Assembly: GCA_963678705.1 (NCBI GenBank) | Contig: OY783205.1 | Coordinates: 2,852,001 to 2,916,000 of the forward strand | From: Panorpa germanica | Taxonomy: Eukaryota; Arthropoda; Insecta; Mecoptera; Panorpidae | DNA length: 64,000 bases | Direction: 5' to 3' | Part shown: positions 1,898 through 28,700 of the stretch, piece by piece | Position numbering within the stretch: the stretch's first letter is position 1 | Layout of the letters: every line of letters begins with the position of its first letter | Notes under the pieces: generated by a model | What the model was told of the DNA's origin: nothing | Seen by the model: the letters and a program-made list of their open reading frames with translations, nothing else | Databases searched by the model: none | Made by a program: the position numbers and the translations under genes

Positions 1898-1948
1898 ATT
1901 AAAAATATAAATGTTGACGGAGATATAGCAACTAAAAATTTGAATTGA
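1898..1948 (-). repeat. Fragment of the GGGCTTGTGTCC MITE
   Basis: The stretch around TTGACGGAGATATAGCAA matches (reverse orientation) the interior of the MITE family seen at 3318, 3904, 20479 and elsewhere. It is fused directly to a Helitron-like unit on its right. Confidence 0.6.
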
Positions 1949-2880
1949 GCGAGTTAAATATTTAAGTAAGCTTTATTATTGAGCGAGTCAAGTATTTTAA
2001 TTTGAAAATAGAATAAAAATTTGAATAGAATTAAAATTTGAAATGAAATTACGAATTATTTTATTGGATTCAAATCATACACACGAAGAAAACGTCGCTT
2101 TGCGACGGGGGTATGCTCTAGTGTACTTATATGTGTCCGAAATTCGTATGGTAAAACGAAAACGACTTCGGCGATGTTTTTGAAAATTTTCTATTTCGTA
2201 GAGAAAAAAATTCTAAGACTTTTGGCGTCCTTGGATTTTCTCCTGAATTTCTTCTGAATATCCTGGAAACCTGTAATTTTGGAAAAACTGGAATAAAATA
2301 ATCACTTTTCCTCGTAACGTTTTAATTCGTAACAGATAGAAAGTTGAAATTTTGCATGTATATTATGCTATTTAATTCGAACATAATTCAAAATTTAGAA
2401 ATTCAAAAATTTATAAAATGGGCGCGGGCAAATTTGGGGGGCACGGTAGGAAACTTTGGAGAAAGCTCAAATTTTTGCGAATTAACTAAATATCATATTT
2501 AGAAAAAAAAATCAAAACTCAAAACTTTTATTTGGGCGCACGGGGGTGGTTTTTGCTGAGAGTAAAAATTGTGCTAGAAAGTTGAAAATTGTATATGGGC
2601 TAACTTTGGTACTTAATTTACAAATCGAAAAAAAAAATACCAAATTTTGAAAAAAAGTTGGTCAAATAACGAATAAATTGAAAATATTTTATATTTTGTT
2701 GAAAAAATTATATATTTTTTTGTCAATTTATATGAAAAATTATTTTATTATTGAGCGAGTTTATTATTTCAATTTGAAAATAGAATTAAATTTTGAAATA
2801 AAATTCGAATTATTTCATTGGATTCAAATCATATACACTAAAAAGACGTCGCTTTGCGACGGGGGTACCCTTAGTACTTT
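1949..2880 (+). mobile_element. Two diverged Helitron-like units (right orientation)
   Basis: Related to the big array at 8.3-20.3 kb. A partial unit ends at about 2117 and a full unit at about 2875. Each ends in the hairpin core CGTCGCTTTGCGACG followed by GGGGGTA. After the first hairpin there is CTAG; after the second, CTTAG. The order of conserved blocks (TATTTCGTAGAG, TTTTGGCGTCC, G-runs, hairpin) matches the array. More diverged than the array copies, so older. Confidence 0.75.
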
Positions 2881-3317
2881 ATATACTGTGATAATAATAT
2901 ACATTGTCTGCAGTTTTAATACATACACTTTTTACAAGAAATATACGAGTATTTGGATCAATTTAAAACTCTAAATAGTTCGGTTTATTTCAGTCATTTA
3001 TTATTTAATTAAATTCAGTAATTTACAGTTACCTTCTCATTTGGAAATAAATTGCGTAATGAATATTACATATCATTATTTTGTCATAATTAAAACACAA
3101 TGGCACGAGACTTGAACATCTGAGCGTTACAATCAAGGTTGAAATCTTCTTGTCATTTAACACTTAAAATGTGCTAATTGTTTGTTATGCATCCTATAAA
3201 AGAAACAGAATTGTTAATAAACTCACATATGCGAACTCGGATTCGATTATCCTACCAAATTTGTTTTTTGTTTTGCATTTAAAAACACAAACACCTAGTT
3301 AGAATATCATGGCAAAT
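2881..3317. other. AT-rich spacer
   Basis: No gene or repeat recognised between the Helitron-like unit and the first MITE copy. Confidence 0.4.
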
Positions 3318-3713
3318 GGGCTTGTGTCCTATGTCTTAATTTCTATGAAAGTGTACTATATATTGATAACGTGGGTTACTAGAACCTCAAATGTTCAATT
3401 ATTTTTTAATAACTCCTTATATGTTAGGAGATATTAACAATTAATAAAGTCATTTTGTCCTTTTATGTTAATTATTAAAGGGATTCAACGTTGTACACAT
3501 TCCAAGACACAAGAGTTGCTAACAGAGCGTAAAAGAGATAGCATATACAACACCGAACTCTTATCCATAGAAAAAATAACTGACCTACATCATAATATTG
3601 CTATATCTCCGTCAACATTTAGATATTTATTAAAATAAAGACCCCAATATACATTTATTAACAACAATTTCAAAAATTGAAAAATCGACCACTAATAAAA
3701 GAGTCCACAAGCC
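3318..3713 (+). mobile_element. MITE copy 1 (GGGCTTGTGTCC family)
   Basis: Starts GGGCTTGTGTCC and ends in the near-complement GTCCACAAGCCC, so it has about 12-bp terminal inverted repeats, each flanked by AAT/ATT-like bases. Interior blocks are shared with the other copies in this window (AACTCCTTATATGTTAGGAG, GGGATTCAACGTTGTA, GCTATATCTCCGTCAACATT). No ORF, so a non-autonomous DNA transposon of unknown superfamily. About 396 bp. Confidence 0.75.
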
Positions 3714-3903
3714 CATTGAAAAAAATTTAAGAAATTACTGTACTTTAATAAGACCATCACTGCCATCTCTTAGAATGTTACAGAAAACTTATATATAATC
3801 AGTTGTATGTAAAAGTTTGAACCTATGCTAATAGTTACACCCTTTGAATATAGATGGATGCAATAAGTATACAACAGCATAGACCAGTGATCCCCTATGA
3901 AAA

Positions 3904-4538
3904 TTGGCTTGTAGTCTGTCTTAATTTCTATAAAAGTGTACTATATACTGATAAAGTGAGTTACTAGAACCTCAAATGTCCAATTATTATTTTTTAATAA
4001 CTCCTTATATGTTAGGAGATATTAACATTTAAAAAAATCTTTTTGTCTCTTTAATTATTAAAGGGATTCAACGTTGTACAACATTCCAAATGCATGAGAC
4101 CTCACAAGTGCTATGTTGCTATCTCTTTGACAGAACGCTGACAACTTTTCAGGTTACCAACCTTACAGCTCATAAATCTCTGCTATATGTATTTATATAT
4201 AAATATCAAGTATTATTTACAACTATTTCAAGGAACAATAAAATTTCAGTATTATGTCTGCCGTAACAGGGTTAAATAAAATAAAAACTTATTAGTCTTT
4301 GACTTGAATTGATTATTTCGACTACCAACAGCTTCAAAACATTACCACAGCACTGACCTAATCAACAAATAACTGACGTTAAAATGCATTTCACTAAAAC
4401 TACAATTTAACTTTTAATTGCTATATCTCCGTCAACATTTAAATATTTAATAAAATAGACACACCAATACACATTTATTAACATCAATTTTAATCAACAA
4501 TTGAAAAATCGACCAATAAAAAATGAGGACACAAGCCC
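3904..4538 (+). mobile_element. MITE copy 2 (GGGCTTGTGTCC family)
   Basis: Same family and orientation as copy 1, with a degraded left end (TTGGCTTGTAGTC) and a clean right end GGACACAAGCCC. About 635 bp: it keeps a middle part that copy 1 lacks. Confidence 0.75.
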
Positions 4539-4914
4539 ATTGAGGTCCGCATGTCGAATCTGTCCTATTGACTCATTTCATACGGCACGCTTTAATCATT
4601 AAATGGCAATAGTTAAAAAAAAAAACTACGTTCCGGTTATGCATCAATTAATTTAACATTTATTTTTGCTTTTAACTTTTTTTATTGTAAAATTTAAAAC
4701 AGACATGATGAAGGAAAGAAACGAATCCAGCTTAATAAAAATGCACGGTTAGTCTCTTTGTAAAGACGGATTTCTCCGGCTATAAAAGAACAGAACGATC
4801 TTTAAGACTCAAATACAAGATGACATCTCCCTCACGGAGTACTGTCTACTATCAATCAAACTAGATCTTTGACAGTAGAGTTATGACGGTGCATAGTCAC
4901 CGCATTTCTAAGAG
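4539..4914. other. Spacer between MITE copies
   Basis: No gene or repeat recognised. Confidence 0.4.
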
Positions 4915-6639
4915 GTCGTTCTTTTATTTTTAAATAACCCTAAGTCGACGAAGATATAGCTATTTAAAATTTGAATTTCAGTTTTATCGCTTGTGATAGT
5001 TCTGCATATGACGTTGCAATTGAATCGAGTAATCAAGTTTATTTTTCTTTTAACATAACAATTATAATACAAAACTGCTGTTAGTAGTAAATGACGTATC
5101 ATACACACACACACACGTATACATCTCTGTTGTATAAAAATTACGTGAAATCATCAGATGTAACATCACACGCAGATTTTTTTTTAATATTGCCAGTTAA
5201 TGATGAAAGCGTCAAAATGACTTTATTTGTTAATATCTCCTATAATATTGTGACTTAATAGGGCTTCACACGAGACGAGATAAGCCGAGAGTTTCTAAAA
5301 TCTCGCCTCGTTCTCGATAGTTTAGAAAAAAATAGGTATCGTTTTAGTCTCGGTTTCGTAATCGTTTGTCTCGCCTCATCTCGTTATTGTGAGAACTTAC
5401 TCCTCCCAGTAAACATTTTGGAGTCAATTCTACTTCATTTCTATTACTTATCATGTTATACAAGTGTAACGGTGAAAAATATATTTTACTTGTCTAACCG
5501 CATCTCGTTTCTCTCTCACTTTGGAATGAAAATGAACTAAAAAAAAATATATCCTAGTGTGAAAGAAACAACTGCTACTTTATGAATGATGTTAGAAAAA
5601 GAAAGAATATTATTATGAAAAAATTCTAACAACTAACACAAAATCTGTGACAGGTAGAGAATCAATTTGAACTAAAAGCTACTTTTTTGTACCAATTTTG
5701 AACTATTAACGAACTTGCTAAGACTACATATATCAGTTTTTATTTCACAAAATCTTGACAGGTAGGGAATAAATTTGAACTAAAATTGGTTTCTGTGTTG
5801 TTGCTTCGAACTTGTAAAGCGTTAGAATTGAATTGTACGAGTGACTCGAACGTCACTAAATAGGGCACTTCACCAAATTGTTTACTGGGCTAAGATAGTC
5901 CTAAACAAAGTAATTCATTATATTATTTCTCCTTTTTTTTTTTTTAATTCTAATTTTTTTACATACTAAGCATATCGCTTCTTTCTCACCATTAATTGTA
6001 TCAAATCTAAAAGAAAATTTAAACTTTGAACAATTTTTACAGTTATACACAGTTTATCAACTGGTTCAATTTCACTTAATGCATCATCACTTTCATCTAA
6101 TCTCGTCCTTTTTGTCAGGTTTACACTACTAACACCTACACTCAACGACATTTTTGCGGCAAAATGTCTTCAAACAATCGTATTGTAAATAATTTATATT
6201 CACATTTATTATCACTTAAAACATTCGTTTCCGTTCGGCTACAAAATGTTGTAAAAGACAAAATTATAAAATAAAATATTTAACAGATGTTTGTTTACCA
6301 GATTTTATATTCCGTAAATTTACGACCTAACCTTTTTTGTAATAAAAATAGGTTGTTGAACCTTTATATTGCTGTTAGTTTATTTTTCTTAAATTTTTTT
6401 TTTTTAAATAACGTCAGCGAGACTCTCTGGTCTCGCCGTATATGGTCTCGGTAAAGTCTCAATAGTTTTCTCGTCTCGTCTCTCTTTTACGAGACGAGAA
6501 GCGAAACAAGACGAGAAAAGTCTCGTGCTTGTGTGAAGCCCTACGACTTATTAACAAATAATTGAAAATTTGAGGTCCTGACCAACTTTATAAATTTAAC
6601 GGACAGTTTTATAGAAATGAAATCATGGATCACAAGCCC
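4915..6639 (-). mobile_element. MITE copy 3, reverse orientation, interrupted by a hAT-like insertion
   Basis: The left part (about 4920-5258) carries the reverse complement of the GCTATATCTCCGTC block and the Lys-tract region; the right part (6544-6639) resumes with ACTTATTAACAAATAATTG and ends at CACAAGCCCA. The two halves are joined by the element at 5259-6543. The left TIR is not recognisable, so the left edge is approximate. Confidence 0.65.
5259..6543. mobile_element. Non-autonomous hAT-like transposon nested in MITE copy 3
   Basis: Ends are TAGGGCTTCACAC and its exact complement GTGTGAAGCCCTA. The 8 bases outside are TGACTTAA and CGACTTAT (6 of 8 equal), as expected for an old 8-bp hAT target duplication. 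The subterminal zones are packed with CTCGTCTCG/GAGACGAG repeats, typical of transposase-binding repeats. The interior has only a 61-codon minus-strand ORF (5966-6151) with no recognised domain. The TAGGG start and 8-bp duplication favour hAT; superfamily is an inference. A fragment of the same interior is at 31520-31840. Confidence 0.75.
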
Positions 6640-6702: not shown

Positions 6703-6978
6703 TTACCGATCGAATTCAATCTTCTTAAACCAAGAAAACGCCAGAGCATCTTTTGCCGTGATTCTTCTGTTGGGATTCAATTCCAGCATTTTGTCAAATA
6801 AATCCAGGGCACGTTTAGGCACGGAAGTACAATAGTCCTGTAGAATACGGCGTTCAAGAACTTCTAGCGGTCTCATAGTGTAGTACAACGGCAATGTAAA
6901 AGCGGACGGCCAATCATTAAGAGATGGCGTGCCACAAAGTTGGTAGATGTCTTCAAGTAGTTCAAGTTCTGATTCACA
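6703..6978 (-). CDS. CDK12-like exon 8: kinase C-lobe
   Basis: Reads [19 protein letters not shown], then [29 protein letters not shown] and [11 protein letters not shown], then TAA. The last bases, CG|GTAAGG, also form a good splice donor, so either the protein ends one helix after the kinase domain or a further exon lies to the left. This exon is 14.4 kb from exon 7, across the repeat array. Confidence 0.85.
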   Translation of the reverse strand, partial: CESELELLEDIYQLCGTPSLNDWPSAFTLPLYYTMRPLEVLERRILQDYCTSVPKRALDLFDKMLELNPNRRITAKDALAFSWFKKIEFDR

Positions 6979-9900
6979 CTGTAAAGCAATATATTGACAG
7001 TTTGATGTTTTTAGTTTGGCGACAGCTGAAAGATATCTTAAAGGTATTCAAATTAAAGAGATAGTTAGATAAGTAAGTTAGAAAGTAAGACAACATTGAA
7101 AATATATGAAAATCTTATCACTGTTCAATATGGCAACCTCTGGTGCGGATGCGGATGCGGATGCGGATTATTGTGTGAAGGTTTCCAATGACACCTCTGC
7201 AAGTTGGTACTATACTTATATTTTACTAAGTACCAAGCCTACGAAACATATCGTTTTATGTTCGTAGTTAAAAATAAATATTCCAGATGGAATTTGTTCA
7301 GCGTTTATTCCAGTGTCGAAAGACTTTAAGGGTTGCCACATCGATCAATGACACATTTTTCGGTAATATACGGAACCATCCATAAATTACGTAACACTTT
7401 TCATGCTTTTTGCACCCCCTCCCCGTTGTTGTAACGTCACATATTTTAAAAATTTAAATTTAGAACTTTATTGAAACAACACATTTACAAAATTAATAAT
7501 CCCAAAATAACAGAAGTAAGTAAATGTTCCGTTAAAGACCGAAAGTAAAAAGTTGATATAACTCCAACTATTCCATAATTCGGTGGACGTCGGATTCTTT
7601 CAGGTTCTTACGAGTGCCATTGGGCGTTCGAATAGATATCGTTAGCCTTGGAATTGGACACAAAAACCATTTGGTATTTAGCACTTCTTTATGTTAGTAT
7701 AACAGGTAGAATTCAGCAAACAAACAATTTTAAACTTCAAAATATCTTACTTATTGTTCCGTACTAATTAACAATCTACAGTATTCAAATATGCTACCGG
7801 GCAATTTTGATTTATGCATAAGACTTATTATTTTTATGGTCTACCTTTATTAGGGTTTTAGGTGATAAAGTAATTTAAATAAGTAAACGAAATTAATCCA
7901 TTAAATATTGTGAGTTTGTAAAATTGTCGTCGGTCTTGTCGGCAGTATGCTTAAATGTATTTTTATTCGGGTCTCTATAGCTATTTAATGGATTTTCAAC
8001 AGACCAGTTACTTGTTATTTTAAGGTCCTTTACTACCAGTATTTTGGACCACGCCCACATATTCTGGTTCCCCTACTCCCAGGTTTATTTACTTACAAAA
8101 ACTGTGTTTCAATGTATATCATTCTTAATCAAAATTTAATGCAACGAGCTTTTTAGTTTAAGTTTCAAATAACAACTTTCTTAGTCTTAAGCTTCAAGCA
8201 ACGAGCTACTTAGTTTAAGATTCAACTATCAACCATCACTGTTATTTTTTAAGCTGCATTCATTCTTAATTGTAGTCACCATTGTTACATGCTGCTACAA
8301 CATTAAATAAACTAGCTTTTCCCCCGTCGCAAGCGACGTTTGTTTTTTATGAGTAGCTTGAATTTCATGTCAAAATTTAATTCCATTTTTAAATTGAAAT
8401 AATAAATAAACTCGTCCTATATTGATTTTAAATTTAATAACAAATAATTTTTCATACAAACTGACTAAGAAAATACATTATTTATATCAAAATAAAAAAT
8501 ATTTTGAATTTATGCGATATTTGGACACCTTTTTTTCAAAATTTCTGATTTTTTTTTCGATTTGTAAATAAGTTACCAAGGTTAGCCTATATACAAAATT
8601 TAAACTTTTTAGCACAATTCTTACTCTCGGCAAATACTACCCCCGTGCCCCCCAATAAAATTTTGAATTTTTTTTTTAATAATAATATACTTAATTATTC
8701 TAGAATCCAGAAAATGATTTTTCTCCAAAGTTCTCTACCGGGCCCCCGAATTTCTTTAACCCCCCCTTTTTCAATTTTTGAATTTCTAATTTTTGAGAAA
8801 TGTCAGCATTGAATACCTTAATGCACATGCAAAATTTCAACTTTCTATCTAATACGAATTAAAAGTAATACAGCAAAAAAGGGATCACTTTTTTCCAGTT
8901 TTTCCAAAATTACGGGTTTTCAGGAAATCCAGGGAAAAAACCCGGGACGCCAAAAGTCTTAGAATTTTTTCCTCTACGAAATAGGAAATTTTTAAAAACT
9001 TCCCTGGAGCCGTTTTCGAGATGCCATACAAAATTCGAACCAAACATATAAACACATAAACATATAAGAATATAAATATACACCTGGGACATTATAATAT
9101 ACTTGAGTTTACCCCCGTCGCAATGCGACGTCTTTTTGTTGTGTATCATTTGAATCCAATTAAATTTCGTATTTAACTGTTCTATTTTTAAATTGAAATA
9201 ATAAATAAACTCGCGCACATATACACACATATAAATTGACTAAAAAAATATTATTTTTTTTTCAAAATAAAAAATATTTTCAATTTATGCGTTATTTGAC
9301 CAACTTTTTTTCAAAATTTGGGATTTTTTTTTTCGATTCGTAAATAAGTTACCAAGGTTAGCCTACATACAAAATTTCAATTTTCTAGCACAATTTTTAC
9401 TCTCGGGAAATACTGCCCCCGGGCCCCCCAATAAAATTTTGAAATTTTGTATTTTTTTTTAATAATAATATACTTAATTATTCTAGAATCCAGAATATGA
9501 ACTTTCTCCAAAGTTCCCTACCGAGCCCCCGAATTTCTTCAACCCCCCCTTTTTCAATTTTTGAATTTCTACTTTTTGAGAAATGTCAGAATTAAGTACC
9601 TTAATACACATGCAAAATTTCAACTTTCTATCTTTTACGACTTAAAAGTAATGCAGCAAAAAAGGGATCACTTTTTTTCCAGTTTTTCCAAAATTACGGG
9701 TTTCCAGGAAATTCAGGGAAAAATCCAGGGACGCCAAAAGTCTTAGAATTTTTTTCTCTACGAAATAGGAAATTTTTAAAAACTTCCCTGGAGCCGTTTT
9801 CGAGATGCCATACAAAATTCGAACCAAACATATAAACATATAAGAACACAAATATACACCTGGGACATTATAATATACTAGCTTTTACCCCCGTCGCAAG

Positions 9901-12900
9901 CGACGTCTGTTTTTTGTGTGCGTCCATTTTTAAACTGAAATAATAAATAAATTCGTCCTATATTAATTTTACATATTATAACAATTAATTTTTCATTCAA
10001 ACTGACAAAGGAAATATATTTTTTATATAACAATTAATTTTTCATTTAAACTGACTAAGGAAATATATTTTTTATATCAAAATAGAAAATATTTTCAATT
10101 CATGCGTTATTTGACCAACTTTTTTTCAATATTTGGGATTTTGTTTCGATTAATAAATAAGTTACCACGGTTAGCCTATATACAAAATTTCAACTTTCTA
10201 GCACAATTTTTACACTCGGAAATTACTGCCCCCCGTGGCCCCGAATAAAATTTTGAAATTTTGAATTTTTCTTTTATTAATAATACACTTAATTATTCTA
10301 GAATCTAGAATATGAACTTTCTCCAAAGTTTTCTACCGGGCCCCCGAATTTCTTCAACCCCCCCCTTTTTCAATTTTTGAATTTCTAATTTTTGCGAAAT
10401 GTCAGCATAAAATACCTTAATACACATGCAAAATTTCAACTTTTTGTCTTTTACGAATTAAAAGTAATACAGCAAAAAAGGCTCACTTTTTTTCTAGTTT
10501 TTCCAAAATTACGGGTTTCCAGGAAATTCAGGGAAAATCCGGGGACGCCAAAAGTCTTACAAAAATTTTCTCTACGAAACAGGCAATTTTCAAAAATATT
10601 GACGAAGCCGTTTTCGCGCTGCCATACAAAACTTACTACCAAACATGTAAGAATATAAGATCCCTAGAGTTTACCCCCGTCGCAATGCGACGTTCTTTTG
10701 TCGTGTATGATTTGAATCCAATAAAATAATTCGTAATTACATTTCATATTTAATTCTATTTTTAAATTGAAATAATAAATAAACTCGCCACACATATAAA
10801 TTGACTAAAAAAAATATTTTTTTTATCAAAATAAAAAATATTTTCAATTTATGCGTTATTTGACCAACTTTTTTTCAAAATTTGGGATTTTTTTTTTCGA
10901 TTCGTAAATAAGTTACCAAGATTAGCCTAGATACAAAATTTCAACTTTCTGGCACAATTTTTACTCTCGACAAATACTGCCCCCGTGCCCCCAAATAAAA
11001 TTTTGGAATTTTGAATTTTTTTTTATTAATAATATACATAATTATTCTAGAATCCAGAATATGAACTTTCTCGAAAGTTCCCTACCGGGCCCCCGAATTT
11101 CTTCAACCCCCCCTTTTTCACTTTTTGAATTTCTAATTTTTGAGAAATGTCAGAATTGAATACCTTAATACACATTCAAAATTTCAACTTTCTATCTTTT
11201 ACGAATTAAAAGTAATACAGCAAAAAAGGGTTCACTTTTTTTCCAGTTTTTCCAAAATTACGGGTTTCCAGGAAATTCAGGGAAAAATCCGAGGACGCCA
11301 AAAGTCTTAGAATTTTTTTCTCTACGAAATAGGAAATTTTTAAAAACTTCCCTGGAGCCGTTTTCGCGCTGCCATACAAAATTCAGTACCAAACATATAA
11401 GATCATAAGAATATAAGAATATAAGAAAATAAACATACAGTTGGAACATTATAATATAGGATGACTAGCTTTTACCCCCGTCGCAAGCGACGTTTGTTTT
11501 TTGTGAGTGGCTTGAATTTCAAGTCAAAATTTAATTTTTGAATTGAAATAATAAATAAACTCGTCCTATATTGATTTAACATTTAATAACAATTAATTTT
11601 TCATACAAACTGACTAAGAAAATACATTTTTTATATCAAAATAAAAAATATTTTGAATTTATGCGATATTTGAACAACTTTTTTTCAAAATTTAGGATTT
11701 TTTTTTCGATTCGTAAATAAGTTGCCAAGGTTAGCCTATATACAAAATTTCAACTTTCTAGCACAATTTTTACTCTCGGCAAATACTGCCCCCGTGCCCC
11801 CCAATAAAATTTTAAAATTTTAAATTTTTTTTTTGTTAATAATATACTTAATTATTCTAGAATCCAGAAAATGAATTTTCTCCAAAGTTCCCTACCGGGC
11901 CCCCGAATTTCTTTAACCCGCCCTTTTTCAATTTTTGAATTTCTAATTTTTGAGAAATGTCAGCATTGAATACCTTAATACACATGCAAAATTTCAACTT
12001 TCTATCTTATACGAATTAAAAGAAATACAGCAAAAAAGGATCACTTTTTTTTCCAGTTTTTCCAAAATTACGGGTTTCCAGGAAATTCAGGGAAAAATCC
12101 GGGGACGCCAAAAGTCTTAGAATTTTCTTCTCTACGAAATAGGAAATTTTTAAAAACTTCCCTGGAGCCGTTTTCGAGATGCCATACAAAATTCGAACCA
12201 AACATATAAACACATAAACATATAAGAGTATAATATACACTTGGGACATTATAATATACTTGAGTTTACCCCCGTCGCAATGCGACGTCTTTTTGGCGTG
12301 TATCATTTGAATTCAATAAAATAATTCGTAATTAAATTTCATATTTCACTGTTCTATTTTTAAATTGAAATAATAAATAAACTCGCGCACATATACACAC
12401 ATATAAATTGACTAAAAAAATATTATTTTTTTATCAAAATAAAAAATATTTTCAATTTATGCGTTATTTGACCAACTTTTTTTCAAAATTTGGGATTTTT
12501 TTTTTCGATTCGTAAATAAGTTACCAAGGTTAGCCTATATACAAAATTTCAACTTTCTAGCACAATTTTTACTCTCGGAAAATACTGCCCCCGTGCCCCC
12601 AAATAAAATTTTGAAATTTTGAATTTTTTTTTAATAATAATATACTTAATTATTCTACAATCCAGAATATGAACTTTCTCCAAAGTTCCCTACCGGGCCC
12701 CCGAATTTCTTCAACCCCCCCTTTTTCTATTTTTGAAATTCTAATTTTTGAGAAATGTCAGCATTAAATAGCTTAATACACATGCAAAATTTCAACTTTC
12801 TATCTTTTACGACTTGAAAGTAATACAGCAAAAAAGGATCACTTTTTTTCCAGTTTTTCCAAAATTACGGGTTTCCAGGAAATTCAGGGAAAAATTCGGG

Positions 12901-15900
12901 GACGCCAAAAGTCTTAGAATTTTTTTCTCTACGAAATAGGAAATTTTTAAAAACTTCCCTGGAGCCGTTTTCGAGATGCCATACAAAATTCGAACCAAAC
13001 ATATAAGAATATAAGATCACTAGCTTTTACCCCCGTCGCAAGCGACGTTTGTTTTTTGTGAGTGGCTTGAATTTCAAGTCAAAATTTAATTTTTAAATTG
13101 AAATAATAAATAAACTTGTCCTATATTGATTTAACATTTAATAACAATTAGTTTTTCATACAAACTGACTAAGAAAATACATTTTTTATATCAAAATAAA
13201 AAATATTTTGAATTTATGCGATATTTGAACAACTTTTTTTCAAAATTTGGGATTTTTTTTTCGATTCGTAAATAAGTTGCCAAGGTTAGGCTATATATAA
13301 AATTTCAACTTTCTAGCACAATTTTTACTCTCGGCAAATACTGCCCCCGTGCCCCCCAATGAAATTTTAAAATTTTAAATTTTTTTTTTATTAATAATAT
13401 ACTTAATTATTCTAGAATCCAGAAAATGAATTTTCTCCAAAGTTCCCTACCGGGCCCCCGAATTTCTTTACCCCCCCCCTTTTTCAATTTTTGAATTTCT
13501 AATTTTTGAGAAATGTCAGCACTGAATACCTTAATACACATGCAAAATTTCAACTTTCTATCTTATACGAATTAAAAGTAATACAGCAAAAAAGGGATCA
13601 CTTTTTTTCCAGTTTTTCCAAAATTACGGGTTTCCAGGAAATTCAGGGAAAAATCCGGGGACGCCAAAAGTCTTAGAATTTTTTTCTCTACGAAATAGGA
13701 AATTTTTAAAAACTTCCCTGGAGCCGTTTTCGAGATGCCATACAAAATTCGAACCAAACATATAAACATCCTATATTATAATGTCCCAGGTGTATATTTA
13801 TATTCTTATCCTATATTATAATGTCCCAGGTGTATATTTATATTCTTATAGTCTTATATTCTTATATTCTTATCATCCTATATTATAATGTTCCAACTGT
13901 ATGTTTATTTTCTTATATTCTTATATTCTTATATTCTTATGATCTTATATGTTTGGTACTGAATTTTGTATGGCAGCGCGAAAACGGCTCCAGGGAAGTT
14001 TTTAAAAATTTCCTATTTCGTAGAGAAAAAAATTCTAAGACTTTTGGCGTCCTCGGATTTTTCCCTGAATTTCCTGGAAACCCGTAATTTTGGAAAAACT
14101 GGAAAAAAAGTGAACCCTTTTTTGCTGTATTACTTTTAATTCGTAAAAGATAGAAAGTTGAAATTTTGAATGTGTATTAAGGTATTCAATTCTGACATTT
14201 CTCAAAAATTAGAAATTCAAAAAGTGAAAAAGGGGGGGTTGAAGAAATTCGGGAGCCCGGTAGGGAACTTTCGAGAAAGTTCATATTCTGGATTCTAGAA
14301 TAATTATGTATATTATTAATAAAAAAAAATTCAAAATTCCAAAATTTTATTTGGGGGCACGGGGGCAGTATTTGTCGAGAGTAAAAATTGTGCCAGAAAG
14401 TTGAAATTTTGTATCTAGGCTAATCTTGGTAACTTATTTACGAATCGAAAAAAAAAATCCCAAATTTTGAAAAAAAGTTGGTCAAATAACGCATAAATTG
14501 AAAATATTTTTTATTTTCATTAAAAAAATATTTTTTTTAGTCAATTTATATGTGTGGCGAGTTTATTTATTATTTCAATTTAAAAATAGAATTAAATATG
14601 AAATGTAATTACGAATTATTTTATTGGATTCAAATCATACACGACAAAAGGACGTCGCATTGCGACGGGGGTAAACTCTAGGGATCTTATATTCTTATAT
14701 AATGTTCCAACTGTATGTTTATTTTCTTATATTCTTATATATCATATATTATAATGTCCCAGGTGTTTGAATCTATTCTTATATGTTTATATTCTTATAT
14801 TCTTATATGTTTATATGTTTGGTACTGAATTTTGTATGGCAGCGCGAAAACGGCTCCGGCGATCTTTTTGTAAATTTCCTATTTCGTAGAGAAAAAAATT
14901 CTAAGACTTTTGGCGTCCCCGGATTTTTCCCTGAATTTCCTGGAAACCCGTAATTTTGGAAAATCTGGAAAAAAAGTGATTCCTTTTTTGCTGTATTACT
15001 TTTAATTCGTAAAAGATAGAAAGTTGAAATTTTGCATGTGTATTAAGGTATTCAATGCTGACATTTCTCAAAAATTAGAAATTCAAAAATTGAAAAAGGG
15101 GGGGCTGATGAAATTCGGGGGCCCGTTAGGAAACTTTGGAGAAAGTTCATATTCTGGATTCTAGAATAATTAAGTATATTATCAATAAAAAAAAATTCAA
15201 AATTTCAAAATTTTATTTGGGGGCACGGGGGGCAGTAATTTCCGAGTGTAAAAATTGTGCAAGAAAGTTGAAATTTTTTATATAGGCTAACTTTGGTACC
15301 TAATTTACGAATCGAAAAAAAAATTCCCAAATTTTGAAAAAAAGTTGGTCAAATAACGAACAAATTTAAAATATTTTTTATTTTGTAAAAAAAAAAAAAT
15401 TTTTTTAGTCAGTTTATATGTGTGGCGAGTTTATTTATTATTTCAATTTAAAAATAGAATTAAATATGAAATGTAATTACGAATTATTTTATTGGATTCA
15501 AATCATACACGACAAAAGGACGTCGCATTGCGACGGGGGTAAACTCTAGAGATCTTATATTCTTACATGTTTGGTAGCAAATTTTGTATGGCAGCGCGAA
15601 AACGGCTTAGTCAATGTTTTTGAAAATTGCCTGTTTTGTAGAGAAAATTTTTTTAAGACTTTTGGCGTCTCCGGATTTTTCCCTGAATTTCCTGGAAACC
15701 CGTAATTTTGGAAAAACTGGAAAAAAAGTGTGACTTTTTTGCTGTATTACTTTTAATTCGTAAAAGATAGAAAGTTGAAATTTCGCATGTGTATTAGGGT
15801 ATTTTATGCTGACATTTCTCAAAAATTAGAAATTCAAAAATTGAAAAAGGGGGGGTTGAAGAAATTCGGGGGCCTGGTAGAAAACTTTGGAGAAAGTTCA

Positions 15901-18900
15901 TATTCTAGATTTTAGAATAATTAAGTGTATTATTAATAAAAGAAAAATTCAAAATTTCAAAATTTTATTTTGGGGCACGGGGAGCAGTAATTTCCGAGTG
16001 TAAAAATTGTGCTAGAAAGTTGAAATTTTGTATATAGGCTAACCGTGGTAACTTATTTACTAATCGAAAAAAAATCCCAAATTTTGAAAAAAAGTTGGTC
16101 AAATAACGCATGAATTGAAAATATTTTTTATTTTGATATAAAAAATATATTTCCTTAGTCAGTTTGAATGAAAAATTAATTGTTATAATATGTAAAATTA
16201 ATATAGGACGAATTTATTTATTATTTCAGTTTAAAAATGGAATTAAATTTTGACATGAAATTCAAGCCACACACAAAAAACAGACGTCGCTTGCGACGGG
16301 GGTAAAAGCTAGTATATTATAATGTCCCAGGTGTATATTTATATGTTTATATGTTTGGTTCAAATTTTGTATGGCATCTCGAAAACGGCTCCAGGGAAGT
16401 TTTTGAAAGTTTCCTATTTCATAGAGAAAAAAATTCTAAGACTTTTGGCGTCCCTGGATTTTTCCCTGAATTTCCTGGAAACCCGTAATATTGGAAAAAC
16501 TGGAAAAAAAGTGATCCCTTTTTTGCTGTATTACTTTTAAGTCGTAAAAGATAGAAAGTTGAAATTTTGCATGTGTATTAAGCTATTTAAGGCTGATATT
16601 TCTCAAAAATTAGAAATTCAAAAATTGAAAAAGGGGGGGTTAAAGAAATTCGGGGGCCCGGTAGGAAACTTTGGAGAAAGTTCATATTCTGAATTCTAGA
16701 ATAATTAAGTATATTATTAATGAAAAAAAATTCAAAATTTCAAAATTTTACTTGGGGGCACGGGGGCAGTATTTTCCGAGAGTAAAAATTGTGCTAGAAA
16801 GTTGAAATTTTGTATATAGGCTAACCTTGGTAACTTATTTACGAATCGAAAAAAAAATTTCCAAATTTTGAAAAAAAGTTGGTCAAATAACGCATAAATT
16901 GAAAATATTTTTTATTTTGATTAAAAAAATATATTTTTTAGTCAATTTATATGTGTCAATGTATATGTGCGAGTTTATTTATTATTTCAATTTAAAAATA
17001 GAACAGTGAAATATGAAATTTAATTACGAATTATTTTATTGGATTCAAATGATACCCGCCAAAAAGACGTCGCATTGCGACGGGGGTAAACTCAAGTATA
17101 TTATAATGTCCCAGGTGTATATTTATATTCTTATATGTTTATGTGTTTATATGTTTGGTTCGAATTTTGTATGGCATCTCGAAAACGGCTCCAGGGAAGT
17201 TTTTAAAAATTTCCTATTTCGTAGAGAAAAAAATTCTAAGACTTTTGGCGTCCCCGGATTTTCCCCTGAATTTCCTGGAAACCCGTTATTTTGGAAAAAC
17301 TGGAAAAAAGTGAGCCCTTTTTTGCTGTATTACTTTGAGTTGGTAAGAGATAGAAAGTTGAAATTTTGCATGTGTATTAAGGTATTCAATGCTGACATTT
17401 TTCTAAAATTAGAAATTCAAAAAGTAAAAAAGGAGGGGTTGAAGAAATTCGGGGGCCCGGTAGGGAACTTTGGAGAAAGTTCATATTCTGGATTCTAGAA
17501 TAATTAAGTATATTATTAATAAAAGAAAATTCAAAATTTCAAAATTTTATTGGGGGGCACGGGGGCAGTATTTGCCGAGAGTAAAAATTGTGCTAGAAAG
17601 TTGAAATTTTGTATATAGGCTAACCTTGGTAACTTATTTACGAATCAAAAAAAAAAATCCCAAATTTTGAAAAAAAGTTGGTCAATTAACGCATAAATTG
17701 AAAATATTTTTTATTTTGATAAAAAAAAAATATTTTTTTAATCAATTTATATGTGTGTATATGTGCGCGAGTTTATTTATTATTTCAATTTAAAAATAGA
17801 ACAGTTAAATATGAAATTTAATTACGAATTATTTTTTGGATTTAAATAATACACGCCAAAAAAACATCGCTTTGCGACGGGGGTAAACCTTAGACTTTAA
17901 AAGAGACTTTAAAGAGAAAAAAATCTAAGACTTCTTGCGTCCCCGGATTTTTCCCTGAATTTCCTGGAAACCCGTAATTTGGGAAAAAATGGAAAAAAAG
18001 TGAGCCCTTTTTTGCTGTATTACTTTTAATTCGTAAATTATAGAAAGATGAAATTTTGCATGTGTATTAAGGTATTCAATGCTGACATTTCTCAAAAATT
18101 AGAAATTCAAAAATTAAAAAAGGGTGGGTTGAAGAAATTCGGGGGCCCGGTAGGAAACGTCAAAGAAAGTTCATATTCTAAATTCTAGAATAATTAAGTA
18201 TATTAACAATAATAGAAAATTCAAAATTTTATTTGGGGCACGGGGGACAATATTTTTCGAATGTAAAAATTGTGCTAGAAAGTTGAAATTTTGTATATAG
18301 GCTAACCTTGGTAACTTATTTACTAATCAAAAAAAATCCCAAATTTTGAAAAAAAGTTGGTCAAATAACGCATAAATTGAAAATATTTTTTATTTTAATA
18401 TAAAAAATATATTTTCTTGGTCAGTTTGTATGAAAAATTAATTGTTATTATATGTAAAATTAAATAGGACGAGTTTATTTATTATTTCAATTTAAAAATG
18501 GAATTAAATTTTGACATGAAATTCAAGCCACACACAAATAACAGACGTCGCTTGCGACGGGCGTAAAAGCTAGTATTCTTATATTCTTATATTCTTATAA
18601 TCTTATATGTTTATATGTTTGGTTCGAATTTTGTATGGCATCTCGAAAACGGCTCCAGGGAAGTTTTTAAAAATTTCCTATTTCGTAGAGAAAAAAATTC
18701 TAAGACTTTTGGCGTCCCCGGATTTTTCCCTGAATTTCCTGGAAACCCGTAATTTTGGAAAAACTGGAAAAAAGTGATCCCTTCTTTGCTGTATTACTTT
18801 TAATTCGTATAAGATAGAAAGTTGAAATTTTGCATGTGTATTAAAGTATTCAATGCTGACATTTCTCAAAAATTAGAAATTCAAAAATTGAAAAAGGGGG

Positions 18901-21900
18901 GGTTAAAGAAATTCGGGGGCCCGGTAGGAAACTTTGGAGAAAGTTCATATTCTGAATTCTAGAATAATTAAGTATATTATTAATAAAAAAAAATTCAAAA
19001 TTTCAAAATTTTATTTGGGGGCACGGGGGCAGTATTTTCCGAGAGTAAAAATTGTGCTAGAAAGTTGAAATTTTGTATATAGGCTAACCTTGGTAACTTA
19101 TTTACGAATCGAAAAAAAAAATTCCAAATTTTGAAAAAAAGTTGGTCAAATAAAGCATAAATTGAAAATATTTTTTATTTTGATAAAAAATATATTTTTT
19201 AGTCAATTTATATGTGTCAATGTGTGTGTGTACTGTGTATATGTGCGCGAGTTTATTTATTATTTCAATTTAAAAATAGAGTTAAATATGAAATGTAATT
19301 ACGAATTATTTTATTGGATGCAAATCATACACGCCAAAAAGACGTCGCTTTGCGACGGGGGTAAACTTTAGACTTTAATAAAGACTTTAAAGAGAAAAAA
19401 TTTCTAAGACTTTAGGCGTCCCATAGAACAAGTTAAATATTTGAATTTCAAAATGGAAATTAAATTTGACATGAAATTAAAGCCATACACAAAAGGCAGA
19501 CGTCGCTTGCGACGGGGGTAAAAGCTAGTATAAGAATATAAATATACACTTGGGACATTATAATATACTTGAGTTTACCCCCGTGGCGTGTATCATTTGA
19601 ATCCAATAAAATAATTCGTAATTAAATTTCATATTTAACTGTTCTATTTTTAAATTGAAATAATAAATAAACTCGCGCACATATACACACATATAAATTG
19701 AGTAAAAAAAAATTATTTTTTTATCAAAATAAAAAATATTTTCAATTTATGCGTTATTTGACCAACTTTTTTTCAAAATTTGGGATTTTTTTTTTCGATT
19801 CGTAAATAAGTTACCAAGGTTAGCCTATATACAAAATTTCAACTTTCTAGCACAATTTTTACTCTCGGAAAATACTGCCCCCGTGCCCCCAAATAAAATT
19901 TTGAAATTTTGAATTTTTTTTCATTAATAATATACTTAATTATTCTAGAATTCAGAATATGAACTTTCTCCAAAGTTTCCTACCGGGCCCCCGAATTTCT
20001 TTAACCCCCCCTTTTTCAATTTTTGAATTTCAAATTTTTGAAAAATATCAGCCTTAAATAGCTTAATACACATGCAAAATTTCAACTTTCTATCTTTTAC
20101 GACTTAAAAGTAATACAGCAAAAAAGGGCTCACTTTTTTTCCAGTTTTTTCAAAATAACGGGTTTCCAGGAAATTCAGGGAAAAATCCGGGGACGCCAAA
20201 AGTCTTAGAATTTTTTTCTCTACGAAATAGGCAATTTTCAAAAACTTCCCTGGAGCCGTTTTCGAGATGGCATACAAAATTTGAACCAAACATATAAACA
20301 TATAAGAAAATAAGAATATAAGAATATAAGAATATAAATATACACCTGGGACATTATAATATATGATAAGATCATAAATATACACCTGGGACATTATAAT
20401 ATATGATAAAATCCAACCAACAAAACTCATATGGACTCATTTCTTATATACGAGTACATCCTAAATACATTTCGGAATGGGCTTGTGTCCTATGTCTTAA
20501 TTTCTATAAAAGTGTACTATATATTGATAAAGTGGGTTACTAGAACCTCAAATGTTCAATTATTTTTTAATAACTTCTTATATGTTAAGAGATATTAACA
20601 ATTAAAAAAGTCATTTTGTCTCTTTAATTATTAAAGGGATTCAACGTTGTAAACATTCCAAGTGCATGTGACATCACAAACCTTGTGTAAGGTTACCAAC
20701 CTTACAGATCATAAATCTCTGCTATATGTATTTATATATCAAAATATCAAATATTATTTACAGCTATTTCAAGGAATAATAAAATTTCAATACTATGTCT
20801 TCTGCCTTAGCAGGGTTAAATAAAATAAAAACTTATTATTCTTTGATTTGACTTGATTATTTGACTACCAACAGCTACAGAACATTACCACAGCACTGAC
20901 CTACTCAACAAATAACTGACGTTAAAATGCATTTCACGTCATACAAATATGGCCGACCATTTCTAACGCTAAAACTACAATTCAAACTTCTAATTGCTAT
21001 ATCTCCGTCAATATTTAGATATTCAATAAAATAGACAATTGAAAAATTGCCAACCAAAAAATGAGGACACAAGCCCATTGCCAACCAGCACAATACGCAT
21101 TTACACAACATAGCCGCAGTAAACTAGCCGTGACTTAAACACTTATAATAAGTCCATTTAGTTAGATTACATGTGACATTACAAAGCTTATGGACCATCC
21201 TCCCCCTATAGTCATATCTAGCTACAATTTGTGGACTCTCTCCCACCTCCCCACTTCGTGACACGTAATAATAGATGATCCATTATGTATTTTCAACTAC
21301 ATCTTAAACGATTAACGACTGACGAAACTGCAGCATTTATAATGGGTCTTCACTTCGAGTTATCTGCTTACCTCAAATAGTCGAACTCCTGTAAACAGTT
21401 CTCCCAAAATGCACCCGCAGGACCAAATATCGACCCCATGTCCATACCATACGTCACCAAGGATAAGTTCTGGAGAACGGTAACCCATGGTAGCAACCTG
21501 TAAATGTTATGACACTATAATAAAACCCAAGTAGAAAATCAATGACACTAAAGGTCTAAACACAGTGATATGGACCCTCACCGCACCGCGTCCTCTTTTT
21601 CGAGACCAATTACTATAGTATTTTATTAGCAGAAGGGGTACATTTACCGTAAAAGGCGGTACACCAAAAGAAATATCTACATATATATTTCCTGTATATG
21701 ATAACAGAGTATAAAATACTTCACTAGATATCTGTTTTGAGTATTTCTATATATGTGTGTGTTCACATCTATATGAACAGGAGTCGGGCCTTACGTCTCT
21801 GGGCCTGTATTTATATGTTGACGTTTTCACTGCGAAGTAGTACTCTTAGGCCGTCCGCACATGGGTCGACTGATTGCAAACGCGAGCCCCGAATCGCCCC

Positions 21901-22704: not shown

Positions 22705-25700
22705 CATTATTATATCGTATTGTGAGATATTTGTGTATATATATATGTATATGTATGTAGGTTGTAAAAATAAATCGAGCATACAAAGTAATCATAACTA
22801 TAACACCCGATATAGCACATGCAAAAAAATTTAGCGCATGCAAAACCAAATCAGTTTTTTTTCGTTCGAGCTTGCGCATTCTCTCACTAACAACACAATT
22901 CCATTCTCATTCGGTTCGGGTAGATTCGGGACTCACGTTTGCAGTCAGCCGACCAATGTACGGACGGCGTAAATGTATAAACTAATACACTAATACCTTA
23001 ATATTTGATCTAGAAAGAAGGGAAAAAGACGACGCGGTCCATCTCACTGTATTTCGACCTTTAGGAGGCCCACTTTACCTGAGTTGTATACGGACGTTTA
23101 TTTTCAAAACGCTGCATGCGGGAGATTCCAAAGTCTGCTAACTTCACTTCACATCTGTCACATAAAGACATATAATTAGAATCCCGTGTTGATCCAGTGA
23201 AATAAGGATTCACTCTCGGAACGAAATGTAATATGTTAAAAACTTATATAAATCTAAGTTAACTCAAAAGTCACATAGAATCTCGTGTACACAAGTCTTA
23301 ATTGCCAATGCTCAAAGGTCACAATTTTGTTTGTATATACGAGGCGGGTTCTTTAAGTAAGTACCGTTTTGGAATTAAAAAAAGACGTGCAAAGATATCG
23401 CAATAATTTTATTTTACATGAAAGCCTGTACCTTAATCTACTTTTCTACATAATTTCCGTGAATATTGAGGCACTTGTCATAACGTGGCACCAGTTTTTG
23501 AATACCCTCCTCATAAAATTCTGCCGCCTGACTTGTTAACCACTGTATCACAACTGTTTTGACTTCGTTATCGTCTTGAAGACGCTGACCACCCAGGTGT
23601 TTCTTCAAGTGCAGGAACAAATGGTAGTCGCTGGGCGCCAGATCAGGGCTGTATGGAGGATGATCTAGAGTTTCCCATTTAAAAGATTTGATGAGATCTT
23701 TGGTCCGATTAGCCACATGTGGACGGGCATTGTCATGCAGCAAAACGATACCCTTACTCAACTTGCCACGTCTTTTGTTCTGGATTGCACGACGCAGATT
23801 GTTCAATGTCTCACAATAAGACGCTGCATTGATTGTCTCATTACGAGGCAGAAACTCCACTAGCAATACTCCTTTTTTGTCCCAAAAAACTGTGCACATG
23901 ATTTTCCGGGCAGAAATTGTTTGCTTAAACTTCACTCTTTTGGGTGATGATAAATGTCGCCATTCCATGGATTGTTGTTTTGATTCTGGTGTGACGTAGG
24001 CCACCCATGTTTCGTCACCAGTAACAATTTGGTCTAAAAAATCTTCACCTTCATTGAGGTACCGCTCAAGGAAAGTCAATGCACTGCCTAAACGTTGGGT
24101 TTTGTGCAAATCCGTCAACATTTTTGGAACCCAACGTGAACACAATTTCCGGTAATTCAAGTTCTCGGTCACAATGCGATACAAAACACTACGAGAATAT
24201 TAAGGAAACCAGTCGCACATTGATGAAATTGTAAAGCGTCTGTTTTCTCTCACCTTTTCTTCCACTTTCTGCACAAAATCTTCATTAAAGACCGAAGGAC
24301 GCCCACTCCGTTCTTCATCATGCACATTTGTGCGGCCATCTTTAAATGCTCTCACCCATTTCCTTACCATTCCATCACTCATAATGTTTTGTCCGTAAAC
24401 TTCACAGATCTCACGATGAATATCGATCGGTTTTACGCCTTTAGGACTAAGAAATCGTATAACAGCCCGTACTTCACAATCGGCGGGACTCACGATTGTC
24501 GGAGGCATCTTAAACACTCAGTAAACAACGTATACAATGAAGAATCAGACTGTAATGGCGTCAGTGAGTAGACAAGAGATGTAGGTAACCAGCGCGCAAA
24601 GGCGGAAACGCAAAACGGTACTTACTTAAAAAACATGCCTCGTATCTTGCTTCCTATGCCATAAATGACAGGATAGAATAGGGTAATGCTATCACGCGTC
24701 CATAAATTACGTAACACAAATTTCCTGCTGTTCCGACTCCTTTTTGAAACCTACTCCACCACTTTGCATGTGACTTCACAACGCTTCTGACCACTACCCC
24801 CATTGTCACATTCAAAGCGATGGCCACGGCGGCCGTACTCGTATAAATTTCCTGCTGTTCCGACTCCTTTTTGAAACCTACTCCACCATTTTGCATGTGA
24901 CTTCACAACGCTCCTGACCACTACCCCCATTGTCACATTCAAAGCGATGGCCACGGCGGCCGTACTCGTATAAATTTGATGTCTAAGTAACCGCTTAACA
25001 TATTTTAATTATTTTCACGGTAAATGAAAGCTGATTAAATTACTACTAGCTGATAATAAAGTTTATGAACTACAATATTCTCCAATGTACAAAAACGGAG
25101 GCCTGCAGAAATAATTTATATAGAGCTATAGAAAAAAATGGAGTGGTGTTGCCAACGACCCTACAAACAATTTTGATCGGAATCCAATTAGATGCGAATC
25201 GTATCACTCTGAATGGTGATTGGAATCCTATTAGACATTAGTGGGACATTACATGAAGCTTTGGACAGCATGTCTGCACCGTCCGGAACGCTCCGTACCC
25301 CCTCTAATTGCCTTCCTAATACTTTCCAAACGAGATTTACCGAGGTGCAAGTCGTGCTACTACCTAGTACTACCACAGTATTAACATATGTTCTCCCGAA
25401 ACGCTGTGTCACTACTGTCTAACCGCTCTCTGATACGAGATTGCTAAGATACGACAAATTGTTTGTAGGGGAGTATGCAGGAACACCTGAGATATCCGAG
25501 ATGGCCGGTGGGTTAGTGATAGACAGGATATGGAATATAACATGTTTAAAACTATAGGTGTAATAATAAATAAAATGTTAATATGGAAAATGTAAATAAA
25601 GGAAGCCCGGTGAATTATTCATTAAAAAAATAGAAACAACAATATTTTTTCTAAAAACCTGTTGTTTTTCGAACAGACACAAGAATTTGACACGTGTCCA

Positions 25701-28700
25701 GCGCCGTTTGAAGGATCGGTGCTGCCGCCCCGTACTCCTACATACTGCAAATTTTTCCTTATTCATTTGTCACAGAAAAGTAACTTGTAGGGGTAGGTTA
25801 CTTGTTCCTGACAATATCCGTGAGAACTAAAAAAAGGTAATTTCCCTTAAAATATCTTTTCTACAAATTAATATTAAACAATGCGCACGTTTCGAAATAC
25901 ACCTAGTTTTTTAAATATATTAATTAGGCACCCTAACAGATTACCCCCTCCCCAACTAGATCCGGAGTTGTATAAGATAAAAGTGGTTTTACAAAATAAA
26001 TGAAATTTCGCGCGCCTGTCATTCTTCACACTATAGCTCACTAACGGGAAATGATGCAAAAAATGTTTAAGTACGAATTTGTAGATAATTGTATACTCTT
26101 CAGCTTTAGTAATAATTGTAAATGTCATTTAGAACATAGGAATCGAGCCTAGTCATTTGGTCAGAAGAAGAAGAAAGAACAACGAAAGCCTGCAGCCTTT
26201 TCAAATCAACACTTGCGTACACGAGATTTTAGGAGATTTTTGAGAGAACTTATAAAATATCGAAACAAAGATTTCTACAAATCTGACCTTTCGTTTATCA
26301 AAACGTTTCCTGGTTTAATGTCCCTATGTAAAATTCCTTTCTGGTGACAGTAGGCAACGCCTTCTAACATCTGCTTCATAATGCTGGCGTTCAGACCCGA
26401 ACTAAAATGCACCTTTTTCTTGAATATGAGCTCCTCCAAGTCGTGATCCATGTACTCTAAGACTAAATATATAAAGTTACCCTGTAAGAACAAGTGAATC
26501 GTCAGGTGTTAGTCAACGACTTACAGATCCGGATAATCCCGAATATGGGAGGCTATCGCACCTACCTTCACACCGATGCTGGCATCATGCTTACTTGTAA
26601 TTATTGTTTTAAGATTGATAATGTTTTTGTGGTTAACTTGCTTGAGAACGTTTATTTCGCGGATGTTACTCATACAGAAACCTATATTGTCTTTTGCGTT
26701 TACATAATTAATTTTCTTTATTGCAACTTTATCACCTGTTTCCTTATCTCTGCATTCATAGACCTGTTTGATTAAACTTTGATGATAAATTGGTATTCAA
26801 GACAATGAACAATTTGCCAATCAAAATTAAATCGCTGTTAAATGGAACACTACATCAGAAATGACGCAGTTCGTCTTTATTTAGCAGCTTAAATATTAAT
26901 GTTCATTGTGCATTGTTCAGTGCGTTGTTCCACTTATGTAAATCGTCTGCAATCGAATCGACTGCGTACTTCACTGTCGTTGTTTATTATAGATTTCTAT
27001 TCAGAATGTAGGAAAATTATTACTCCAAAATTACTAATGGTATCTAGTTAAAATTGAAATTCTATAAAAATGAAAGAGAACTGAAACTCTTACCAGTTCA
27101 TATTCTACACTTCTACTAATAATATATTTTAAAAGAGCATAGAATTATTTACCGTACCGGCTCATATTCTACACTTCTACTAATAATATATTTTAAGAGA
27201 GCATAGAATTATTCTCCGTACCGGCTCCCGCATGTATTGTTTAGATGAAATCTTAACTTTCTTCAAAAATGAACACAAAATTAATAAAATTTGTAAGCTG
27301 TAATAGACTCTATTAACGTTATTTACCGTGCCATAAGCCCCTTGTCCAATAACATTCATCTTCTCAAATTGAGCAATGGTTCCATCGCTAAAACGTGCCA
27401 CCTGATATGAACATGTTGCCGCATTTCCAGTTTTTAGTTTACGCAGTATTTTAGGCACTTTCAGTCGACTATCACTTTCTAAAGATATCAGCACATTTCC
27501 TTTATCGCCAGATACAGCAGATGTATCTAAGAGAAATTGAATTTGAGTGAAATTAATTTAACCAACACCACCTAGATACAAAGCCTAACAACGAATTTAT
27601 GACGTCACGCATTGTAGTTCGGATGTACAACCAAAACGTATTGTATGTATCAATATTCATATAAAAAAAATTATAATTTAATTTAAACAGTCTAATCGTT
27701 ATGCATATAAAGATTTATTTACAAAGTATAATAAAAAATTAATAATATTAAAGTTACGATATATGATAATTCTTTTGTATTCTGTATATTTATATAAGTA
27801 TATTAATATATGTATTTAAATATTAACTACGAGAATTTACAAGCTATCAACCTAATGATTTATAAAAATTAATACAGAAATCATAATTAAGAAAAAAGAA
27901 TGGATTGAAATATATTTATTTTATTAAAGTAATTAATTTTCTCTTTCTTGATGGTTTTTCATTAACATAAATTATGTTACGTTATGTTGGTTGATATCCC
28001 AACTATTCTTTACATATATTATACAACTATGGCAGCAATCTAATTTGTCTTCCCAGAGCAATTCTCTTATTTTCAATACTTTTATTGTTTGATTTACTTG
28101 TCTATTGGTATTTTTTGTTTACACTGACCACATTTAAGTTTTTTTAACACAGCATGACAGATAATAACTTTTCCACTTGCCATTTCTGGATCAGTAACAT
28201 TATCTTATCATTATCGTTATCTATTATCATTATCGAACTACAATGCGTGACGTCATAAATTCGTTGCTAGGCCTTGTATCTAGGTGGTGTTGATTTAACT
28301 CACTACATATGTTGCTTTAAGGGATGATATACGATGTTGTAGGTATTCATGTACCACAAGACTATTCGCAGAAACTCGGATAACAATATACACCATAAAT
28401 GACTTATTTACCTGAATAGAAATGCTTTTGTAGATTAGATAATTTCCTTCTTAGTTCTTCTTCATCGGTTGAAAGGAAGGTGCAATGTTTATTGGTCGAT
28501 TGAAACATCTGTTTATGTTCTAATTCAGTTAAAGATGTAAACCAATGCGGTTTACTTACTTTAGAAGGTCGTACTGAACATGGTACACTCTCTTTCGGTT
28601 TTGTAGAGGCCATTCCACAATTTTTTAAAACTGCAGGATTAACAAGTTGTTTCATTTTACCTAAATCTGTTTTCGGTTTTTCTTTACTGGAATTTAGTGG

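Follow-up and report, generated by a model that had tools for sequence, protein, structure and literature searches.

The stretch of DNA analysed here, called the window below, comprises 64,000 nt of the Panorpa germanica assembly GCA_963678705.1 (OY783205.1, positions 2,852,001-2,916,000 of the forward strand) and holds a long array of short units with Helitron-type 3' ends, probably within one intron of a kinase gene (Table 1). The intron placement had been proposed in a sequence-only reading of the same DNA, and kinase exon pieces do bracket the array; one of these was recognised by eye and another is a weak Pfam match, which makes the placement probable rather than certain. That reading had also counted about 16 units at 8312-20410, seven facing left, eight right and one left again. 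The order and orientation are confirmed, and the borders can now be set at 8312-20406: the array contains sixteen 3' ends in just this sequence of 7, 8 and 1, belonging to 15 units, mostly near-complete, and a 91-bp stub. The left-facing block (8312-13765) has seven units, the right-facing block (13930-19528) has seven units, one of them 5'-truncated, followed by the stub of a 3' end, and the last left-facing unit (19584-20305) stands singly and has lost its hairpin. The 3' end of a unit consists of a CGTCGC-loop-GCGACG hairpin, 10 nt and CTAG; the hairpin, described earlier as perfect in each complete unit, is so at 14 of the 16 ends, with one base changed at 17865-17879 and the hairpin missing altogether at the end at 19568. 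Two subtypes, mostly in alternation along the array, can be distinguished: A, with the loop TT and the end AAAAGCTAG, and B, with the loop ATT or TTT and an end that is mostly AAACTCTAG or AAACTCAAG. The 3' motif GCGACGGGGGTANNNNCTAG, searched in the window with up to two mismatches, gave 16 matches against none in 100 shuffles; 15 fall in the array and one at 2102, while the array end at 8312 escapes the pattern through a one-base deletion.

Table 1. Features of the window (positions in the window)
Feature	Position	Strand	Details
Outer left-facing array	8312-20406	-	12095 bp including nested insert, 6335 bp without; flanks A8311, T20407
Unit A, terminal in outer array	8312-9059	-	hairpin, GGGGAAAAG, CTAG
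Unit B	9102-9843	-	end CTCAAG, CTAG lost
Unit A	9878-10659	-	
Unit B	10664-11415	-	end CTCTAG
Unit A	11465-12217	-	
Unit B	12259-13014	-	end CTCAAG
Unit A	13020-13768	-	leader interrupted by insert; 5' leader part resumes at 19529
Nested right-facing array	13769-19528	+	5760 bp, 5' TCCTATATT, 3' GCGACGGGGGTAAAAGCTAG; between A13768 and T19529
Stacked 5' leaders of insert	13769-13950	+	two truncated CTTA-ended pieces, TCA remnant, first unit's leader
Seven right-facing units together	13930-19371	+	
Unit B	13930-14681	+	
Unit B	14796-15549	+	
Unit A	15554-16312	+	
Unit B	16334-17096	+	
Unit B	17134-17893	+	
Unit A, 5' truncated	17926-18573	+	
Unit B	18603-19371	+	
91-bp stub of unit A	19438-19528	+	3' end of insert; hairpin; CTAG 19525-19528
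Outer array's first unit	19529-20406	-	B, hairpin deleted; doubled 5' leader; next unit's split-off leader piece
Older two-copy tandem relative of the Helitron family	about 2024-2874	+	80-83% to unit B
Kinase exon piece, weak	6706-7047	-	Pkinase 7e-4, under Pfam cut-off
Kinase exon piece (YRSPELILG...)	21363-21482	-	by eye; other side of array
Clear Pkinase exons	26278-26508 and 26524-26796		Pfam match; right of array

The sequence-only reading took the whole for a single giant, nearly palindromic inverted array. In fact, the head-to-head layout is that of one multi-unit element inserted in the opposite orientation into another, and its halves did not arise as mirror copies in a single event. 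The right-facing block 13769-19528 has complete Helitron-type termini (TC...CTAG) at both sides. The AT-rich centre noticed earlier at 13769-13947 is present, but proves to be a stack of 5' leaders reaching to 13950; the sequence there reads ...AACA|TCCTATATTATAATG, and at the far side of the insert ...GGGGTAAAAGCTAG|TATAAG. Excising the insert joins ...CCAAACATATAAACA to TATAAGAATATAAATATACAC..., the usual junction of the left-facing units, and leaves the outer array in strict alternation, B-A-B-A-B-A-B-A. For comparison we sampled loci L011-L030, chosen at the best genomic matches to the unit, several of them neighbours of one another, and L031-L050, chosen at listed 3' ends of apparently isolated position. 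In the first set and the window, 53 stretches align across the 13768|19529 join (rows being retained only when covering both sides), with gaps where the outer unit has lost its hairpin and at a short repeat in the leader; the leader made by the join differs by two substitutions from that of L013, and by one insertion and one deletion from that of L020 (the same DNA as L007). We rejected an inversion as the origin of the head-to-head junction, since the insert is complete at either end and its two flanks make up a single interrupted leader. An oppositely facing array has split an array, and the apparent giant palindrome is therefore one array that landed in another.

The ends and target sites of the family across the genome are those of a Helitron. 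In the assembly of 464 Mb and 249 contigs, GCGACGGGGGTANNNNCTAG occurs exactly 3722 times, against none for the reversed pattern, and at 3413 of these ends, internal junctions included, the reading is CTAG|T. With outer and flank classes assigned by script, and one false regular-expression hit removed from the CTAG set, T follows 35 of 35 flank-class CTAG ends (some lying in family sequence, and ends of other letters being tallied separately), and A precedes 22 of 25 outer-class starts; three of the 25 lie in arrays (window 13769, L012 1712 and the minus strand of L026), and without them the count is 19 of 22. Multi-unit arrays are present at all 20 of the loci L011-L030, and what is present at L031-L050 ranges from fragments and solo units through B-A dimers to a few longer arrays; the solo unit of L042 and the dimer of L044 both have the termini A|TC...CTAG|T. 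Excision of the insert in the window, and of two inserts in L026, shows A|T insertion with no target duplication. The structure is that of a canonical Helitron, with A before the 5' TC, T after the 3' CTAG (of the type CTRR) and the hairpin 10 nt from the end, within the canonical 10-12 nt. The T-rich site and terminal Ts of Helentrons and HINEs are absent from a family with CTAG|T and with A before TC, and its dispersed borders, A|TC and CTAG|T, differ from a classical satellite, with arrays devoid of defined insertion ends. The exact 3' motif had no match in IMG/VR viral contigs. The scattered copies, the empty-site test in the window and a related helicase element whose ends are homologous (see below) support the proposal, already made in the sequence-only reading, of a non-autonomous Helitron family moved in trans, presumably by rolling-circle enzymology. 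As a separate observation, L012, L016 and L021 have identical sequence just upstream of an element 5' end, a possible source of more empty sites.

The junctions between units point to how such arrays form. The 5' leader of the family reads TC[A/C/T]TATATTATAATG, followed by TATTCTTA/TATATGTTT repeats, and is AT-rich. At 61 internal CTAG junctions, drawn from the sampled loci and the window, what comes next is T plus a deeper leader position in 29 and TATATTATAATG without TCN in 18; hence 47 of the 61 run on into T plus an inner part of the leader, which is what A|T insertion into a resident leader would leave. The 5' edges of arrays carry stacked leader pieces, and A stands before 27 of the 40 TCN starts that lie in family context. 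At L026 the record is exact: a leader piece (1238-1277) is followed by an inverted insert (1278-3028, 1751 bp), the leader piece TATTCTTA, a direct insert (3037-5429, 2393 bp) and the remainder of the leader, and the three leader pieces joined make 88 bp that are found intact in L028 at 8484. A second exact reconstitution, with one direct insert, is seen in L014. Insertion at A|T sites in the leaders of copies already present, in either orientation, appears to be the main way in which arrays grow.

The other class of internal junction runs from B to A and mostly reads CTCAAG|TATATTATAATG. In the sampled loci and the window, all 44 of the 44 CAAG ends have an internal position, and 534 of the 568 exact CAAG ends in the genome pass directly into a leader. 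Nearest-end spacing, tried as a further test for internal CAAG, was weak (21 of 37 CAAG against 34 of 100 CTAG ends listed). The B-A dimer stands alone at L043 and L044 and also occurs within arrays, and the terminator and read-through of Helraiser (PMC4778049) suggest by analogy that CAAG may be bypassed during transposition. Blocks of several units have been copied as well: L039 and L046 match over 2117 bp at 98.7%, both beginning at TC and extending a few bases past CTAG, with different flanks; the outer array matches L011, which lies some 70 kb off in inverted orientation, over 3859 bp at 99.7% across several units; and L013 and L014 have near-identical blocks (99.6%). A related family, H2, with the 3' end CGTCGCNNNGCGACGGGGCGAAGCGCTAG, has 739 such ends in the genome; those listed at C1:15743481-15765486 are mostly about 3855 bp apart, the regular tandem pattern of another Helitron-like family, and units of the present family directly follow H2 ends in L016, L020, L021 and L039.

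A candidate for the source of transposition proteins is an element common to L011 and L014, where its copies are 96.2% identical over 4573 bp. It encodes a PIF1-type helicase (PF05970, E 1.7e-58), contains a repeat tract and has the 3' end GACGTCGCTTTGCGACGGGGTAAAAGCTAG, the final part of which aligns with units A and B; L032 has about the last 1.1 kb of the element. An element in L030 with a Helitron Rep domain in its frame has a helicase that shares about 40% identity with this one. Among the best 96 of 1556 candidates scored, helicase matches have 69-100% identity, with an open frame of more than 2000 aa in 30 of the 96, 26 of these 30 without a stop in the match; the L014 frame has 2228 aa, its coordinates extending to the open frame in L015. 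Upstream of the L014 frame lies a unit-like stretch, 88.7% identical to B positions 1-717, that leads into unique DNA. Of the best 40 of 1500 copies of this unit/unique 5' junction, 20 are followed, after 7.6-9.8 kb and on the same strand, by a listed helicase, against 0 of 40 in each of the controls (upstream; opposite strand). Given the homologous 3' end and the shared 5' region, the short units look, by sequence, like internally deleted relatives of the helicase element, which, known from its helicase, 3' end and 5' region, is the likely driver. The search for a RepHel element with common ends, suggested earlier, has thus yielded a helicase element with a homologous 3' end and 5' region; the 1119-aa RepHel in L030 (178-3829) was rejected as the partner, as it has a different 3' hairpin and is nested in a unit. 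An open frame of the same 1119 aa is found at many places in the genome, and other Helitron Reps are plentiful (893 candidates, with 150 of 150 scored above the cut-off).

We are highly confident that a non-autonomous Helitron family, in which whole multi-unit arrays can be mobile, inserted twice at this locus, the second time within the first insertion. A left-facing array of four B-A pairs would have entered the kinase intron at an A|T site, and a right-facing array would then have inserted at A|T within the AT-rich leader of the second unit in the outer array. More generally, the AT-rich 5' leader of the family would itself serve as a Helitron target, and this would be the main reason why arrays build up: a newcomer would have a short piece of the resident leader upstream of it and the remainder of the resident unit past its own CTAG, giving a head-to-tail pair when in the same orientation and a head-to-head pair when in the opposite one. 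In the commonest pair the upstream CTAG became CAAG, so that termination would skip it and B-A would move as one element, larger blocks being copied later, with mobilisation by the related element with its Helitron-type helicase, common 3' end and 5' region. For this wider scenario, in which self-targeting of the leader in both orientations makes arrays, units are fused when an internal CTAG is lost, and arrays that became mobile multiply units, our confidence is moderate.

Several observations weigh against parts of this account. Nine of the 61 CTAG junctions between units go on with TC, as in circle junctions or concatemers, and such CTAG|TC joins are expected from a circle junction or from exact end-to-end insertion; a further 5 of the 61 go on with a non-T base, which A|T insertion leaves unexplained. 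G precedes 13 of the 40 TCN starts in family context, the outer-class 5' ends include two preceded by G and one by T, three of the A-preceded starts are not independent because one flank is common to all three, and L013 carries a 3' end CTAT. A blind exact leader test over all loci, its fragment list restricted to pieces with a final A, gave 1 of 20 same-locus against 11 of 509 cross-locus pairs and was not discriminating, because leaders are few and alike; the claim of leader insertion therefore rests on L026, L014, the window and the junction classes. The 568 CAAG ends have one junction in common and therefore represent one event, amplified, that is, a single composite that was multiplied, and 34 of them lie outside the direct-into-leader class. 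Family 3' ends listed on C1 (including C1:4072534-4089969) show a regular spacing of about 5281 bp that is better explained by block duplication; together with the H2 spacing, this suggests that block duplication contributes too. Lastly, 20 of the 40 junction copies have no listed helicase nearby.

The TC continuations and the two regular spacings, of about 5281 bp (C1) and 3855 bp (H2), could also be claimed for over-replicated rolling circles that yielded units as concatemers, with the head-to-head junction made by later inversion or template switching; plant and bat tandem Helitron arrays are cited for rolling-circle movement (PMC5876387). We think this unlikely as the general source of the arrays. 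The sequence-only reading had likewise invoked rolling-circle tandem copying, and this fits the nine CTAG|TC junctions of the 61; the 47 that pass into T plus inner leader are not expected of a circle junction, and the window's inverted junction, where both element ends are intact, is that of an A|T insertion rather than of a sheared inversion.

Both the alternation of B and A and the block repeats resemble the higher-order repeats of satellites, and some near-identical blocks lie at close loci (L011 and the window, L013 and L014), as would follow if unequal crossing-over and gene conversion had multiplied a few dispersed copies, with the Helitron ends as relics. That is improbable for arrays that are bounded by A|T insertion sites and spread over many contigs, for a block that begins at TC in both L039 and L046 amid differing flanks, and for an inverted insert that splits a leader exactly, as in L026. 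Least credible of all is that the head-to-head junction is a misassembly of two unrelated arrays: repeats of this kind are easily misassembled and the layout is known from the assembly alone, but the right-facing block ends complete, its flanks make one leader interrupted at A|T, and L026 has a second inverted insertion of the same anatomy. The nested insertion of one Helitron array into another thus remains our preferred reading of the locus.

Elsewhere in the window, a mariner-type transposase fragment (PF01359, 1.2e-21) lies at 23441-24199 on the minus strand, with an additional open piece at 24203-24517; a dispersed repeat family has copies 75-95% alike at 3314-4512, 20476-21037, 30542-30768, 32698-33285 and 44481-44745; and a 127-bp tandem repeat at 24718-24977 has two copies, 98% identical. 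Exons recognised by eye at 38.8-41.5 kb and 47.8-51.5 kb, on the minus strand, suggest an SLC12-type transporter and patched.

What looked like a palindrome is explained by two ordinary insertions, and the model offers a concrete way in which a mobile element could give rise to arrays resembling satellites. The arrays keep a readable record of their growth: leftover leader pieces lie at the 5' edge, and the remaining sequence stands past each CTAG. The composite with CAAG in place of CTAG constitutes a natural test of Helitron termination, and helicase copies with long frames in the same genome render the model testable.

Canonical animal Helitrons have a 5' TC, a 3' CTAG, a hairpin about 10-11 nt upstream and A/T insertion (PMC4778049; PMC4344730), and the hairpin of Helraiser is a terminator that may be bypassed, with read-through reported (PMC4778049). 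The ends, hairpin position and A|T insertion of Helraiser/Helibat1 and the lepidopteran Hel-2 are the same as in the Panorpa family; in contrast to these, it has several hundred B-A junctions with a lost internal CTAG, and multi-unit blocks copied to new places. Helentrons, DINE-1 and HINE elements resemble the Panorpa units in being short, non-autonomous and rolling-circle, with a 3' palindrome and simple repeats, but use T-rich insertion sites (PMC4067079), whereas the Panorpa units end in CTAG|T, insert between A and T and have their hairpin where canonical Helitrons do.

Tandem arrays are described from bat and Bombyx mori (PMC4067079) and from plants, where they have many 5' ends, a single 3' end and truncated copies (PMC12628747; Xiong et al. 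2016 as cited). All consist of head-to-tail Helitrons or derivatives, as in Panorpa; unlike the plant arrays, however, most Panorpa units retain hairpin and end, their CTAG junctions lie mostly inside leaders, and there are inverted insertions. Self-insertion composites are also described for FoHeli of Fusarium, for which Helitron-in-Helitron insertion, also in opposite orientation, was proposed to yield multiple 5' termini and composites; one tandem triple Helitron in Metarhizium has the same two candidate causes (PMC5148889). Those are single or few non-canonical cases, whereas Panorpa has a large family, an exact three-piece leader and an array within an array. Helitron arrays and self-insertion are hence already known; new here, relative to the literature searched, are the scale, the leader as a recurrent self-target, the composite that lost its terminator, and a whole array nested in another.

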